A DNA stretch of 64,000 bases, from the NCBI RefSeq assembly GCF_000739635.1, contig NZ_BATQ01000171.1, forward strand, positions 62,001 to 126,000, read 5' to 3'. The first letter of the stretch is position 1. Every line of letters begins with the position of its first letter. This document shows positions 6,966-17,007 of this stretch, piece after piece. The DNA comes from Verrucomicrobium sp. BvORR034. Lineage in GTDB: Bacteria; Verrucomicrobiota; Verrucomicrobiia; Verrucomicrobiales; Verrucomicrobiaceae. The translations under genes were made by a program, and so were the position numbers. Below the pieces are notes generated by a model that ran no database searches, was not told where the DNA came from, and saw only the letters and a list, made by a program, of their open reading frames with translations.

Positions 6966-7382
6966 ATGGCCCTCCCCGAAGCTCCAAACACCCCGACCTA
7001 CTACCACGGTACTCGGGCCGACTTGCAACCCGGCGACATCATCGCGCCCGGCTACAACTCCAACTACGGCAGCAGGAGAAAGGCAAACTTCGTCTATCTG
7101 ACCGCCACGCTCGATGCAGCCACTTGGGGAGCCGAACTGGCCCAAGGCGAAGGACGCGGCCGAATCTACATCGTCGAACCCACAGGGCCGTTCGAAGATG
7201 ACCCGAACCTGACCGACAAGAAATTCCCCGGCAATCCGACCAAGTCCTACCGCACCCGGGAACCATTGCGAGTCACCGGCGAGATCACCGACTGGCAAGG
7301 CCATCCACCCGAAGTCTTGCAGAAGATGAAGGATCATCTTGAGAAGCTCAAGCTGGCAGGCGTGGAAGCGATTGAGGAGTAA
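6966..7382 (+). CDS. arr: Rifamycin NAD+ ADP-ribosyltransferase Arr
   Basis: Transfers ADP-ribose from NAD+ to a hydroxyl of the rifamycin ansa bridge, inactivating the antibiotic; cytoplasmic. The 138-residue product is almost a textbook Arr: YYHGTRADLQPGDIIAPGY near the N-terminus, SNYGSRRKANFVYLTATLD, AATWGAELAQGEG, GRIYIVEPTGPFEDDPN, LTDKKFPGNPTKSYRTREP and LRVTGEITDW. Length equals the family's usual 135-145. The open frame reaches back to 6828 inside the previous gene, but homology begins right after ATG 6966. No mobile element directly flanks it, though a MITE-like repeat starts about 200 bases downstream. Chromosomal arr genes are common in environmental bacteria, so it may be intrinsic. 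Confidence 0.95.
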   Translation: MALPEAPNTPTYYHGTRADLQPGDIIAPGYNSNYGSRRKANFVYLTATLDAATWGAELAQGEGRGRIYIVEPTGPFEDDPNLTDKKFPGNPTKSYRTREPLRVTGEITDWQGHPPEVLQKMKDHLEKLKLAGVEAIEE

Positions 7383-12052: not shown

Positions 12053-12880
12053 CTACGCCCCCTCCGTGCTGCCGTGCCACACACGCTGCAGACGCTCAAT
12101 CTTCAGCGCCTTGCCCGTCGTCGCATCCACATCCACCACTGCGCCACACAGTTTCACCTGACCGCGAGCCACATGGCCCTTGCTGGGCAGCAGCTTGGTG
12201 AACCGCTCGATCGCCGTCTGCACTTCCATGCCGATGCACGAGTCCACCGGGCCGCACATGCCCGCATCGCAGAGAAATGCGGTGCCATTGGGCAGCACCC
12301 GCTCATCCGCCGTCTGCACATGCGTATGGGTTCCCACCACAGCGGAGACCCGGCCGTCCAGATACCAGCCCAGCGCCATCTTCTCGCTCGTGGTCTCGGA
12401 GTGCATGTCCACGAAGATGACCGGCGTTTCCTTGCGCATCTCTGCCACCACCTCATCCATGACGGTGAAAGGGTTCTCCAGCAGCATCTTCATGAAGGTG
12501 CGACCCTGCACGTTGATCACGCCCACCTTGCCCTTCTTCGTCTCCAGCACCAGCGTGCCTTCGCCCGGCGTGCCCGCGGGATAGTTCACCGGCCTCAGCA
12601 GCCGGGGTTCTTCAGAAAAGTACGGCACGATCTCCTTCTGGTCCCACACATGATCCCCCGTCGTGATGACCGCCGCCCCGGCTCGCATGAGCCCGATGGC
12701 GATCTTCGGCGTGATGCCTCGACCGCCGGCGCTATTCTCGCCGTTCACAATCGCGAAGTCGATGTGCAACTCCTCCTTAAGCCGCGGCAACATCTCCGCC
12801 ACCGCTTTTCGTCCCGGGTCACCCATCACGTCACCTAAAAAAAGGATGCGAATCGTCTGGTCAGAGGGGGCGTCTGTCAT
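12053..12880 (-). CDS. ymdB: YmdB-family metallophosphoesterase (TIGR00282)
   Basis: A dimetal phosphoesterase of the YmdB family; the Bacillus member hydrolyses 2',3'-cyclic AMP and affects biofilm choice. The ligand motifs are in order: LFLGDVMGDPGR, IVNGENSAGGRGI, ITTGDHVWDQKE, VDMHSETTSEK and VVGTHTHVQTADE, followed by the conserved DAGMCGPVDSCIGME. ATG 12880 (MTDAPSDQTIRILFLG) begins 30 bases inside the longest frame; the extra ten residues from 12910 are not family-like. About 275 residues, normal length. Divergent from the amidase gene, with about 50 bases between starts. Cytoplasmic; substrate inferred from the family only. Confidence 0.9.
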   Translation of the reverse strand: MTDAPSDQTIRILFLGDVMGDPGRKAVAEMLPRLKEELHIDFAIVNGENSAGGRGITPKIAIGLMRAGAAVITTGDHVWDQKEIVPYFSEEPRLLRPVNYPAGTPGEGTLVLETKKGKVGVINVQGRTFMKMLLENPFTVMDEVVAEMRKETPVIFVDMHSETTSEKMALGWYLDGRVSAVVGTHTHVQTADERVLPNGTAFLCDAGMCGPVDSCIGMEVQTAIERFTKLLPSKGHVARGQVKLCGAVVDVDATTGKALKIERLQRVWHGSTEGA

Positions 12881-12932
12881 GCAGTACGTATTTGAGGATG
12901 AATTGTCCATGAATCAAGTCTAGGCTGCCAGC

Positions 12933-14399
12933 ATGTTGGACGGACGCTGCAGACCATGGATGACCGGAGTTGCCCTCCTGATGGGGCTGAACTGCGGCAT
13001 GATGGCGCAGACTTCCCCGGCGCCAGCGCCCGCCCCCGCTCCCGCTTCCGGGACAGGACCGGCCGCCGCACCCGCCTCCAAACCCGCACCCACTGCGGCT
13101 CCCACATCCGCAGAGGCACCTGCAGTGGGCCCCCTGGCGGCAGACTCCCCTTCCGCCCCGCTCACCCCAGTCCCGCCGATCCTGGCCAAACCAAAACTCA
13201 GCCCGCTGGCGACCCCGCCTAAATGGGACGAGCTGAAGGCCTACGATGGCGTGCTCACCCGTGCGCAGTTTGAGAAAGCCATCTCTCATGTCTATGGCAA
13301 TGGCTCGACCTTCCCGCCACCGTGGAAGCTGGACGACCAGGGTGTCATCGTGGACACCACGCCTGGCAAACTGCCCGTGCGCATTGCTTTTCGTCCCGCC
13401 ACGGTCGAGCCCAAGCAGGTCCCCCACTACTGGCGCGCCGCCAAGGATCTGCGCCCGCTCGAGCCCGGTCAATCCCCGCTGAAGGGCGTGCACATCGCTC
13501 TGGACCCCGGCCACATCGGTGGCGGATACGCCCGCCTGGAGGAGCGCTGGCTGAGCATGAATCCGGGTGAGGAAATCATGGAGGGTCGGATCGTCCTACA
13601 GGTGGCCCAGCTCCTGAAACCCCGCCTGGAGGCCCTCGGCGCCCGCGTCAGCATGGTGCGGGAGTCGGAGAACCCCCTCACCAAGGACACCCCCCAGAGC
13701 CTTCAGGACGAAGCCCTCCGATTGCTCCACGAGGCCGGCATCGCCAGCCCGAAGGACTCCTACACCGACCCCCGCGACGAGGCCCGCATCCTCAGCGTGC
13801 AGTGGCAGTCGGAAAAACTGTTCTACCGCGTGAGCGAGATCCACGCCCGCGCCCGCCGCGTGAACGAAGAACTGCGACCCGACCTTGTCCTCTGCCTGCA
13901 CCTGAACGCGGAGCCTTGGGGCGATCCCAAGCAGCCTTCGTTCGTGGAGGCCAACCACTTTCACCTGCTCATCAACGGCTGCTACAGCCCGGATGAATTG
14001 CAGTATGAGGACGTGCGCTTTGAGATGCTGCGCCGCCTTTTCTCCCGCACTGAGGAGCAGGAAATGGCCATGGCAGCCCCCGTTGCCTCCGCCATGGCCG
14101 CCGCCACCGGACTGCCGCCTTACCTCTACACCACCGCAAATGCTCGTCGGGTGTCAGGAAGCCCCTTCGTGTATGCACGGAACCTGCTGGCAAACCGGAT
14201 GTATGAATGCCCGGTCCTCTACTTTGAGCCCTACGTCATGAATCACGGCGAAACCTACCGCCGCCTCCTGCTGGGCCACTTTCTGGGGCGCACGCTCCTG
14301 GATGGCAAGCTGGTCACCAGTCCGCTGGAGGACTATGCCCGCGGTGTGGAGCGCGGTCTGGTGGAATACTTCACTCAAGCCCGGAAAGGAGGCGCCTGA
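12933..14399 (+). CDS. Exported N-acetylmuramoyl-L-alanine amidase-like protein (Amidase_3 fold)
   Basis: Probably cleaves the bond between N-acetylmuramic acid and the stem peptide of peptidoglycan in the periplasm. A signal sequence (hydrophobic MTGVALLMGLNCGMMA) is followed by about 40 residues of Ala/Pro-rich linker. The catalytic domain has the zinc histidine in HIALDPGHIGG (near residue 194), a Glu in the following EGRIVLQVAQLLKPRLEALG helix that matches the second ligand, and a second histidine in LVLCLHLNAEPWG. It has a long insertion between these motifs and a C-terminal extension, making it larger (488 residues) than simple amidases. The stop is two bases before the next gene's start, so the two are very likely one operon. 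Confidence 0.8.
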   Translation: MLDGRCRPWMTGVALLMGLNCGMMAQTSPAPAPAPAPASGTGPAAAPASKPAPTAAPTSAEAPAVGPLAADSPSAPLTPVPPILAKPKLSPLATPPKWDELKAYDGVLTRAQFEKAISHVYGNGSTFPPPWKLDDQGVIVDTTPGKLPVRIAFRPATVEPKQVPHYWRAAKDLRPLEPGQSPLKGVHIALDPGHIGGGYARLEERWLSMNPGEEIMEGRIVLQVAQLLKPRLEALGARVSMVRESENPLTKDTPQSLQDEALRLLHEAGIASPKDSYTDPRDEARILSVQWQSEKLFYRVSEIHARARRVNEELRPDLVLCLHLNAEPWGDPKQPSFVEANHFHLLINGCYSPDELQYEDVRFEMLRRLFSRTEEQEMAMAAPVASAMAAATGLPPYLYTTANARRVSGSPFVYARNLLANRMYECPVLYFEPYVMNHGETYRRLLLGHFLGRTLLDGKLVTSPLEDYARGVERGLVEYFTQARKGGA

Positions 14400-14401
14400 T
14401 C

Positions 14402-15820
14402 ATGCGCTGCCTCGTGGTGGGATGTGGCTACTCGGGTGAAAAGCTGGCGGACCTGCTGCATGAAGCAGGTCACGAGGTCACCGGCATCACCCATTCCCCG
14501 GAATCGGCGGAGCGGCTCACCGCCTCCAAGCCCTACCCGGTGTTGGCGGCAGATGTCAGTGACGAAGCCAGCCTCGCGCAGGCCACGGCAGACCTGAGCC
14601 CTCACCCGGACGTGGTCATACATTGTGCCTCCTCGAACCGGGGCGGTGCCGAGATGTACCGCAAGGTGTACCTGGAGGGCTGCACCCATCTCATCGCCCT
14701 CTTCCCCAAAGCGCACCTGCTCTTCACCAGCAGCACCAGCGTCTATCCGCAGGTGGACGGCTCGCTCGTAGACGAGGCCAGCCCAGCGGAGCCTGAGCGT
14801 GAAACCGGCCGACTCCTTCGTCAGACGGAAGATCTCGTCCTCTCTCACGGCGGCACCATCACCCGTCTGGCAGGCATCTACGGTCCCCACCGTTCGTTTG
14901 TGCTCAAGAACTTCCTCGAAGGCAAGGCCTCGATCGAAGGGGCAGAAGGCCAGGGCCGCGTCTTGAACCAGATCCATCGCGATGACGTGGCGCGCGCCAT
15001 CATGCACCTGCTGCTGGGGGGGCACCGTGGAGTTTACAACGTGGCGGACGATCTCCCCATGACCCAGCGGGACTGTTTCAAGCACCTGGCCGCCCGCTTC
15101 GCCCGCCCTCTGCCGCCAGTGGCCCCGCCCAACAACGAGCGGAAACGCGCCTGGACCAACAAGCGCGTCTCCAATGCCACCCTGCGCGCCACTGGGTTCA
15201 CGCTCACCTATCCCAGCTATTTCGACGCCCTGGACAATGACGCCGCCCTGGTGCCGTCCATCCTCACCGAGCTGGGCCTGCCTGTCACCAGCGCCCGCCG
15301 CGGACGCAACATCATCATCGTGGGCCTCATGGGTTCAGGGAAATCAACCGTGGGCCGCATGGCCGCCCACAGCCTCGGGTTTGGATTTGTGGACACGGAC
15401 CAGATCATCATCGAAAAGGCCCGCAAGACCATCCCCGACATCTTCGCTGCCGAAGGCGAGGCCGGCTTCCGCCAGCGCGAGACTGAGGCCCTGAAATCCC
15501 TGCTCGGCAAGGAGGGTCTTGTCATCGCCACCGGTGGCGGCATCGTCACCCAGGCTGCCAACCTGCCCATCCTCAAACAACTGGGCTATGTGGTCTGGCT
15601 GAACGCCGATCCCAACACGCTCTACCAGCGCACGGTGCACAGCAACGACCGACCACTGCTGCGCAACCAGGACCCTGCCGCCACCCTGCGCCACCTGTAC
15701 GAGACCCGGCGCCCCATGTACCAGAAGGCCAGCGATCTTCAAATTGGCACCGACGACCTGACTGCCCAGGATGTGGCCTATGGCCTGGCGGAAAGTGTGC
15801 GCGTGTATTTTAGAGGGTGA
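14402..15820 (+). CDS. Fusion of an NAD(P)-dependent epimerase-like SDR with shikimate kinase
   Basis: Two complete domains in one frame. Residues about 1-290 are an extended short-chain dehydrogenase/epimerase: RCLVVGCGYSGEKLADLL Rossmann start, TSSTSVYPQ, RLAGIYGPHR and a terminal HRDDVARAIMHLL. Residues about 297-472 are shikimate kinase: P-loop VGLMGSGKST (near 306-314), VDTDQII (substrate Asp), FRQRETEAL, ATGGGIV, NDRPLL (lid Arg) and TRRPMY. The kinase part phosphorylates shikimate at O3 in aromatic amino-acid synthesis. All key kinase residues are present, so this may be the organism's AroK. The classical Y-x-x-x-K of SDRs is not evident, as in YeeZ-type proteins. Follows the amidase by two bases. 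Confidence 0.88.
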   Translation: MRCLVVGCGYSGEKLADLLHEAGHEVTGITHSPESAERLTASKPYPVLAADVSDEASLAQATADLSPHPDVVIHCASSNRGGAEMYRKVYLEGCTHLIALFPKAHLLFTSSTSVYPQVDGSLVDEASPAEPERETGRLLRQTEDLVLSHGGTITRLAGIYGPHRSFVLKNFLEGKASIEGAEGQGRVLNQIHRDDVARAIMHLLLGGHRGVYNVADDLPMTQRDCFKHLAARFARPLPPVAPPNNERKRAWTNKRVSNATLRATGFTLTYPSYFDALDNDAALVPSILTELGLPVTSARRGRNIIIVGLMGSGKSTVGRMAAHSLGFGFVDTDQIIIEKARKTIPDIFAAEGEAGFRQRETEALKSLLGKEGLVIATGGGIVTQAANLPILKQLGYVVWLNADPNTLYQRTVHSNDRPLLRNQDPAATLRHLYETRRPMYQKASDLQIGTDDLTAQDVAYGLAESVRVYFRG

Positions 15821-15939: not shown

Positions 15940-17007
15940 ATGCCCCCTGCCGTTCTCAAGTCAGAACTTCAGGAGCTGTCCCGCGAGCTCGGCTTCAGCG
16001 ACTGCCGGGTCGCCCTCGCGCTGCCTGCGGCGCATCGGGAACTGTATGAGCAGTGGGTGGCCGATGGCAAATATGGCGACATGGCCTGGATGGCCCGCAA
16101 CATGGAGCGGCGCATGGATCCCCGGCTGGTGCTACCCGGTGCGAAGTCGATCGTTGTCTTTGCGCTGAACTACTTTCAAGGCGCAGGCCCGCAGCCCGGT
16201 CAGCTGGAAGGCCGGATCGCGCGCTACGCGTGGAACAACGACTATCACGACCTCATCGACAAGATGCTCAAGGCCGTGAACATCTTCCTTGAGAGCAAGG
16301 GAGGCACCCAGCGCTTCTATGTGGACACCGGCCCGGTATTGGAACGCGACTTCGCCAGTGAGTCAGGACTGGGCTGGGGCGGGAAAAGCACCATGCAGAT
16401 CCACCGCGCCCTCGGCACCTGGTTCTTTCTGGCCGAGATCCTCACCACCCTGGAGCTGGAGCCGGATTCCCCGGCTCACGATCTTTGCGGCAAGTGCACC
16501 CGCTGCATCACCGCCTGCCCCACCCAGGCCATCACCGCCCCACGGCGCATGGATGCCCGCCGATGCATCTCCTACCTCACCATCGAGAGCAAGAGCCCCA
16601 TCCCGATTGAGTTCCGCCGCGCCATCGGCGACCGCCTCTACGGCTGTGACGAATGCCTGACCGCCTGCCCGTGGAACCGCTTCGCCCAGACCTCCCACGA
16701 AGCCTGGTTCCAGGCCCGCGATTCCGTCTTCAACCTGCACCTCCGCGACCTGCTCGCCCTTGATGATGAGGCCTTCCGCACCCTCTTCGCCAAGTCCCCC
16801 ATCAAGCGCATCAAACGCCCCGCGTTCCTGCGAAACGTCTGTGTGGTTTTAGGAAACATCGGCACCGCGGACGACCTTCCCGCCCTGAAAATTGCCGCAA
16901 CCGATGAGCATCCCCTGATCTCGGAGCATGCGCAGTGGGCGATTGAGGAGATCCAGTGGAGAATGAAGGGTGGCATGAGCGCCCCGACAGCAACGGCGAG
17001 CCTCTAA
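15940..17007 (+). CDS. queG: Epoxyqueuosine reductase QueG
   Basis: Reduces epoxyqueuosine in tRNA to queuosine, using cobalamin and two [4Fe-4S] clusters; cytoplasmic. The N-terminal domain shows WMARNMERRMDPRLVLPGAK and VVFALNY, typical of QueG; DTGPVLERDFA and GLGWGGKST are its cofactor-binding motifs. Clusters are bound by CGKCTRCITACP (from Cys183) and YGCDECLTACPWNRFA (from Cys236). A short HEAT-like tail follows. ATG 15940 gives 355 residues and the expected N-terminus; the earlier GTG at 15880 would add 20 residues encoded by a repeat. Other queuosine genes are not in the window. Confidence 0.93.
   Translation: MPPAVLKSELQELSRELGFSDCRVALALPAAHRELYEQWVADGKYGDMAWMARNMERRMDPRLVLPGAKSIVVFALNYFQGAGPQPGQLEGRIARYAWNNDYHDLIDKMLKAVNIFLESKGGTQRFYVDTGPVLERDFASESGLGWGGKSTMQIHRALGTWFFLAEILTTLELEPDSPAHDLCGKCTRCITACPTQAITAPRRMDARRCISYLTIESKSPIPIEFRRAIGDRLYGCDECLTACPWNRFAQTSHEAWFQARDSVFNLHLRDLLALDDEAFRTLFAKSPIKRIKRPAFLRNVCVVLGNIGTADDLPALKIAATDEHPLISEHAQWAIEEIQWRMKGGMSAPTATASL

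Follow-up and report, generated by a model that had tools for sequence, protein, structure and literature searches.

An SDR::shikimate kinase fusion gene in Verrucomicrobiaceae and the gene orders that may account for it

The stretch of DNA that we analysed (the window) comprises 64,000 nucleotides of Verrucomicrobium sp. BvORR034. At positions 14402-15820 of its forward strand lies an open reading frame that starts with ATG, extends over 472 codons with zero internal stops, and has AGGAGG just 5' of its start codon. An initial annotation had described this frame as one gene in which an extended SDR of YeeZ/epimerase type is joined to an intact shikimate kinase (SK), two bases behind an amidase gene. 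Reading of the open frames confirmed the single frame, its coordinates and the two-base gap (the amidase gene ends at 14399, the fusion starts at 14402), and both the Pfam domains and the conserved frame agree that the YeeZ/epimerase-type SDR is truly fused to an intact SK. The features of the locus are given below.

12053-12910, reverse strand: YmdB-like phosphoesterase, divergent from the amidase gene; conserved flank of the amidase-SDR pair
12933-14399, forward strand: divergent Amidase_3-type gene, directly upstream of the fusion; older neighbour of the SDR (22.4 bits against a Pfam cut-off of 27 bits)
14402-15820, forward strand: SDR::shikimate kinase fusion gene, 472 aa (one open frame; Pfam Epimerase and SKI; kept at full length in 41 of 43 genomes of the family)
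14402-15271, forward strand: N-terminal domain, residues 1-290, best called an atypical SDR (Pfam, 3gpi match, motif alignment, fold model)
15272-15304, forward strand: linker between the SDR and SK domains (no plausible start codon for a separate kinase near the junction)
15305-15817, forward strand: C-terminal shikimate kinase domain, about residues 302-472 (Pfam, structure-sequence match, residue conservation)
15940-17007, forward strand: queG (tRNA epoxyqueuosine reductase), directly downstream of the fusion; older neighbour of the shikimate kinase

In the Pfam search the fusion protein matched Epimerase at residues 4-215 (E 2e-14) and SKI at residues 310-463 (E 5e-48; 163.6 bits compared to a cut-off of 22.1). 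When the sequence was matched to solved structures, the nearest to residues 2-275 was 3gpi, a putative NAD-dependent epimerase/dehydratase (E 5e-29), with 3ius also matching the SDR (E 3e-16), and the nearest to the C-terminal part was the shikimate kinase 4y0a (E 5e-35). A structure model showed a Rossmann/epimerase fold with pLDDT about 90 across most of residues 1-290, and the PDB structure most like its SDR part was 3gpi once more, ahead of 3ius and UDP-glucose 4-epimerases. Owing to too few sequences the kinase part was modelled with low confidence, and the model gives no reliable domain arrangement.

The glycines of the Rossmann motif G-x-G-x-x-G (G7, G9 and G12) are invariant in 45/45 SDR sequences. 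The canonical YxxxK motif is absent; at the positions that we infer to be equivalent, T135 is found in 44/45 and L139 in 45/45 sequences, fused and stand-alone alike. Because the Tyr and Lys are thus replaced by Thr and Leu, the N-terminal domain is, from its motifs, best called an atypical SDR rather than a classical or standard extended one. The SDR-like fold and Rossmann motif of the initial annotation therefore stand, but with Tyr-x-x-x-Lys missing family-wide the sequence does not establish dehydrogenase activity. The same residues are kept in stand-alone SDRs outside the family, so the lack of YxxxK predates the fusion and their conservation is not tied to SK. The closest known proteins by sequence and fold are the SDRs of the 3GPI, 3IUS and YeeZ type (Epimerase, PF01370), which share the Rossmann motif; the SDR of the window, which we take to be YeeZ-type, differs from them in being fused to SK. 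Titles and abstracts of the YeeZ literature were uninformative. In one other genome (G099; L043, 6354-8051, forward strand), an SDR of this family is joined to a HAD-type hydrolase.

The linker in the window is 15 residues long, from a Ser-Ile near the end of the SDR to Asn303. It has 15-16 residues in 28 of 30 members (one mis-measured row allowed for) and 20 in two. No internal codon of the window could plausibly start a separate kinase, since the only in-frame start codons near the junction sit in the first strand and the P-loop of the kinase.

The kinase domain contains the P-loop GxxGxGK[ST] as GLMGSGKS, with K314 invariant in 42/42 fused and free sequences. Aligned with E. coli AroK, residues D331, D333, R357, E360, G378-380, R417 and R436 are invariant in the same 42 sequences; we take them to be the counterparts of D32, D34, R58, E61, GGG79-81, R117 and R136, the shikimate-binding and catalytic residues of M. 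tuberculosis SK. The domain aligns end to end with AroK/AroL (SKI, PF01202; E. coli AroK 1kag, also 4y0a) with the catalytic residues kept, and it differs from these free-standing enzymes in being the C-terminal part of a 472-aa fusion. The kinase part scores under the NCBIfam equivalog cut-offs.

In order to know whether the genome has another aroK, as the initial annotation had recommended, its 8.58 Mb (99.96% complete) were searched with PF01202, and one strong match, the fusion, was obtained along with two weak ones of 28.4 and 23.1 bits. The two weak matches (C108 and C143) were rejected as a second aroK, since from their sequences we read one as gluconate-kinase-like and the other as a further small P-loop kinase. 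A search of the same genome for a shikimate kinase of the archaeal GHMP type found none, so that neither search recognised a second SK. Chorismate synthase (aroC), DHQ synthase (aroB), EPSP synthase (aroA) and shikimate dehydrogenase (aroE) are all present, the aroE and aroB-like genes being encoded away from the fusion gene. Because the fused domain is the only SK candidate, its residues are intact and four pathway genes are present, it very probably provides the aroK function of the cell, with a predicted conversion of shikimate and ATP to shikimate-3-phosphate.

The search for the same domain order in other genomes, also recommended by the initial annotation, covered a sample of 142 genomes of the order, 43 of them in Verrucomicrobiaceae and the rest in five other families. 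The full-length fusion is present in one frame in 41 of the 43 Verrucomicrobiaceae genomes, with 51-100% identity. As for the remaining two, the contig of G137 ends within the fusion gene, and in G004 the SDR and SK are two separate genes. Among the matches listed, SDR and SK were separate in the five remaining families and across 387 genomes sampled from the phylum, with no SDR::SK fusion in either set. Four candidates were rejected: an apparent extension into an SDR in G424 (L091) and long frames in L075 and L073 are not built as SDR::SK, and the one in L089 is spurious, overlapping another frame. Among plasmid records no place covered 80% of the fusion query.

Shikimate kinases joined to another domain are already known, namely AroK-AroB (NCBIfam NF010556, NF010627), the pentafunctional AROM, which also came up among the solved structures, and SK behind a benzoate-catabolism regulator (NF006015). 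Compared to these, the partner in the window is an SDR without a known place in the pathway, and the likeness is limited to the SK domain; in particular, the fusion protein has no Pfam match to a DHQ_synthase domain, so it is not an AroK-AroB protein. We also found other SK fusions in the phylum. SK forms the C-terminal part of a dihydroorotase in a distant family (L086, 5839-7668, reverse strand; L087, 4489-6336, forward strand), and in another family (L088, 5274-6530, reverse strand) it follows an AroE-like domain, recognised by a modest 37-bit match to the AroE N-terminal domain. The SK is C-terminal in these proteins as in the window, but partners and lineages differ, which points to separate events and suggests that SK tolerates N-terminal partners, unrelated ones included. 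In the open-access papers covered, we found no description of an SDR::SK fusion. When searched for fusions, a pathway survey of 488 prokaryotes (PMC3018139) mentions only the aroM pentafunctional gene and bifunctional dehydratase/dehydrogenase enzymes. What seems new here is the SDR as SK partner; the fusion is real and conserved but probably does not amount to a new biochemical system.

In a tree built from the SDR and SK alignments joined together, Verrucomicrobiaceae formed one clade (support 95/91), with two unfused members falling among the fused ones. The AU test speaks against one clade of all fused forms (p 0.036). The topology implies either one early fusion followed by two fissions, or repeated fusion of an overlapping gene pair. 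An early fusion with later fissions is favoured by the constant linker; the tree alone does not decide. In the first of the two unfused members (L036, from G004), the SDR and SK frames share 11 bases, the SK start ATG being at 7240 and the SDR stop at 7248-7250. The other comes from a Phragmitibacter MAG (L044), where the overlap is 4 bases (GTGA).

Gene orders around the separate genes were counted by hand from match coordinates. In 16 genomes from three other families (e.g. G019, G131, G039, G130), the SDR lies within 750 bp 3' of an amidase gene that has the same orientation. In 17 genomes, also from three families (e.g. G095, G039, G040), the SK lies 5' of queG at a distance of up to about 350 bp, and three further genomes have the two about 1 kb apart. 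Both pairs are present but apart from each other in G039, G054 and G130. In the family, the order amidase-SDR::SK-queG is found in G000, G045, G052, G063, G083 and G106, and the flanking genes can part independently: the amidase gene is elsewhere in G021, and queG is elsewhere in the g3 genomes. Although the Amidase_3 score of the upstream gene in the window is below the cut-off, its DPGH, HLNA and FEP motifs can be read. The divergent arrangement of the YmdB-like phosphoesterase and amidase genes (12053-14399 in the window) is kept as far as the class (L076, L064), and the class-level relative L076 has the amidase-SDR pair as well.

We consider it likely that the gene encodes a bifunctional polypeptide, the sole aroK behind an atypical SDR, which originated from gene pairs placed end to end and whose domains are most probably independent. 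As we infer the order of events, two older pairs, amidase-SDR and aroK-queG, would have come end to end in the ancestor of Verrucomicrobiaceae. The inner genes, SDR and aroK, which overlap by 4-11 bases where unfused, would then have been joined in frame, with about 15 residues as linker. This operon rearrangement would have fixed two independently working enzymes in one polypeptide, with the fusion tolerated or mildly useful through 1:1 expression. Gene order explains the fusion better than metabolic coupling does, because each domain has an older partner other than its fusion mate and both SK and SDR take other partners. Neither of the flanking genes, amidase or queG, represents a new functional partner for SK. 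The fused state could have been selected for and not merely tolerated, given its family-wide retention down to 51% identity and the nearly constant linker.

The same retention and linker could be expected if the two domains were functionally coupled, with the SDR acting on some metabolite of, or derived from, the shikimate pathway (a cyclitol of the dehydroshikimate or quinate type, for instance) and the fusion channelling it to the kinase or co-regulating the two; the fold is like that of sugar-nucleotide epimerases, which are enzymes of ring polyols. We regard this as unlikely, since the conserved neighbour of the unfused SDR is an amidase and no aro gene, the genome has its AroE gene at another locus, an unrelated dihydroorotase is the N-terminal partner of SK elsewhere in this phylum, and the canonical YxxxK dyad is missing. 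It is likewise improbable that the SDR performs an uncharacterised NAD(P)-dependent step on a cyclitol feeding or draining shikimate, the fusion then being a true bifunctional enzyme selected in Verrucomicrobiaceae. The invariant glycine-rich nucleotide-binding motif combined with the absent YxxxK would also suit a pseudo-enzyme or NAD(P)-sensing domain serving as allosteric regulator of the kinase. As stand-alone SDRs outside the family keep the same residues, and the domain interface is not predictable from a model whose kinase part has low confidence, such a role seems improbable.

The initial annotation had also hinted that an odd operon ties aromatic synthesis to envelope biology. The two-base gap to the amidase gene does suggest co-transcription, but coupling of aromatic synthesis to envelope remodelling is very improbable: in other families of the order the amidase pairs with the SDR alone and SK with queG, as separate pairs, and within Verrucomicrobiaceae both flanking genes leave independently. 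The juxtaposition appears secondary, and an envelope link applies at most to the amidase-SDR pair. A sequencing or assembly error or frameshift joining two genes, which the initial annotation had named as a possible refutation, is ruled out by the full frame kept in 41 of 43 family genomes. An inactive kinase with an aroK elsewhere was likewise rejected, as the catalytic residues are all intact and no other SK was recognised in the genome; the chance of an artefact or inactive kinase of either kind is negligible.

With the preferred reading, in which end-to-end gene pairs gave rise to the fusion, the locus offers a fusion of genes from unrelated pathways whose origin is readable from gene order, through the joined pairs, the overlapping unfused forms and the family-wide fused product. 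The case warns against "Rosetta stone" logic, as a domain fusion need not mean a functional link, and it provides a tractable context for the YeeZ/3GPI-type SDR family.

Two observations concern queG. It was not found in G004 and in many g11 genomes of the order, which suggests that epoxyqueuosine reductase was lost or replaced there. In Sinorhizobium meliloti (CP090106.1, 366168-366992) there is a distant SDR relative with queG annotated at the match, and in Rhizobiales the SDR may therefore have come to lie near queG independently.
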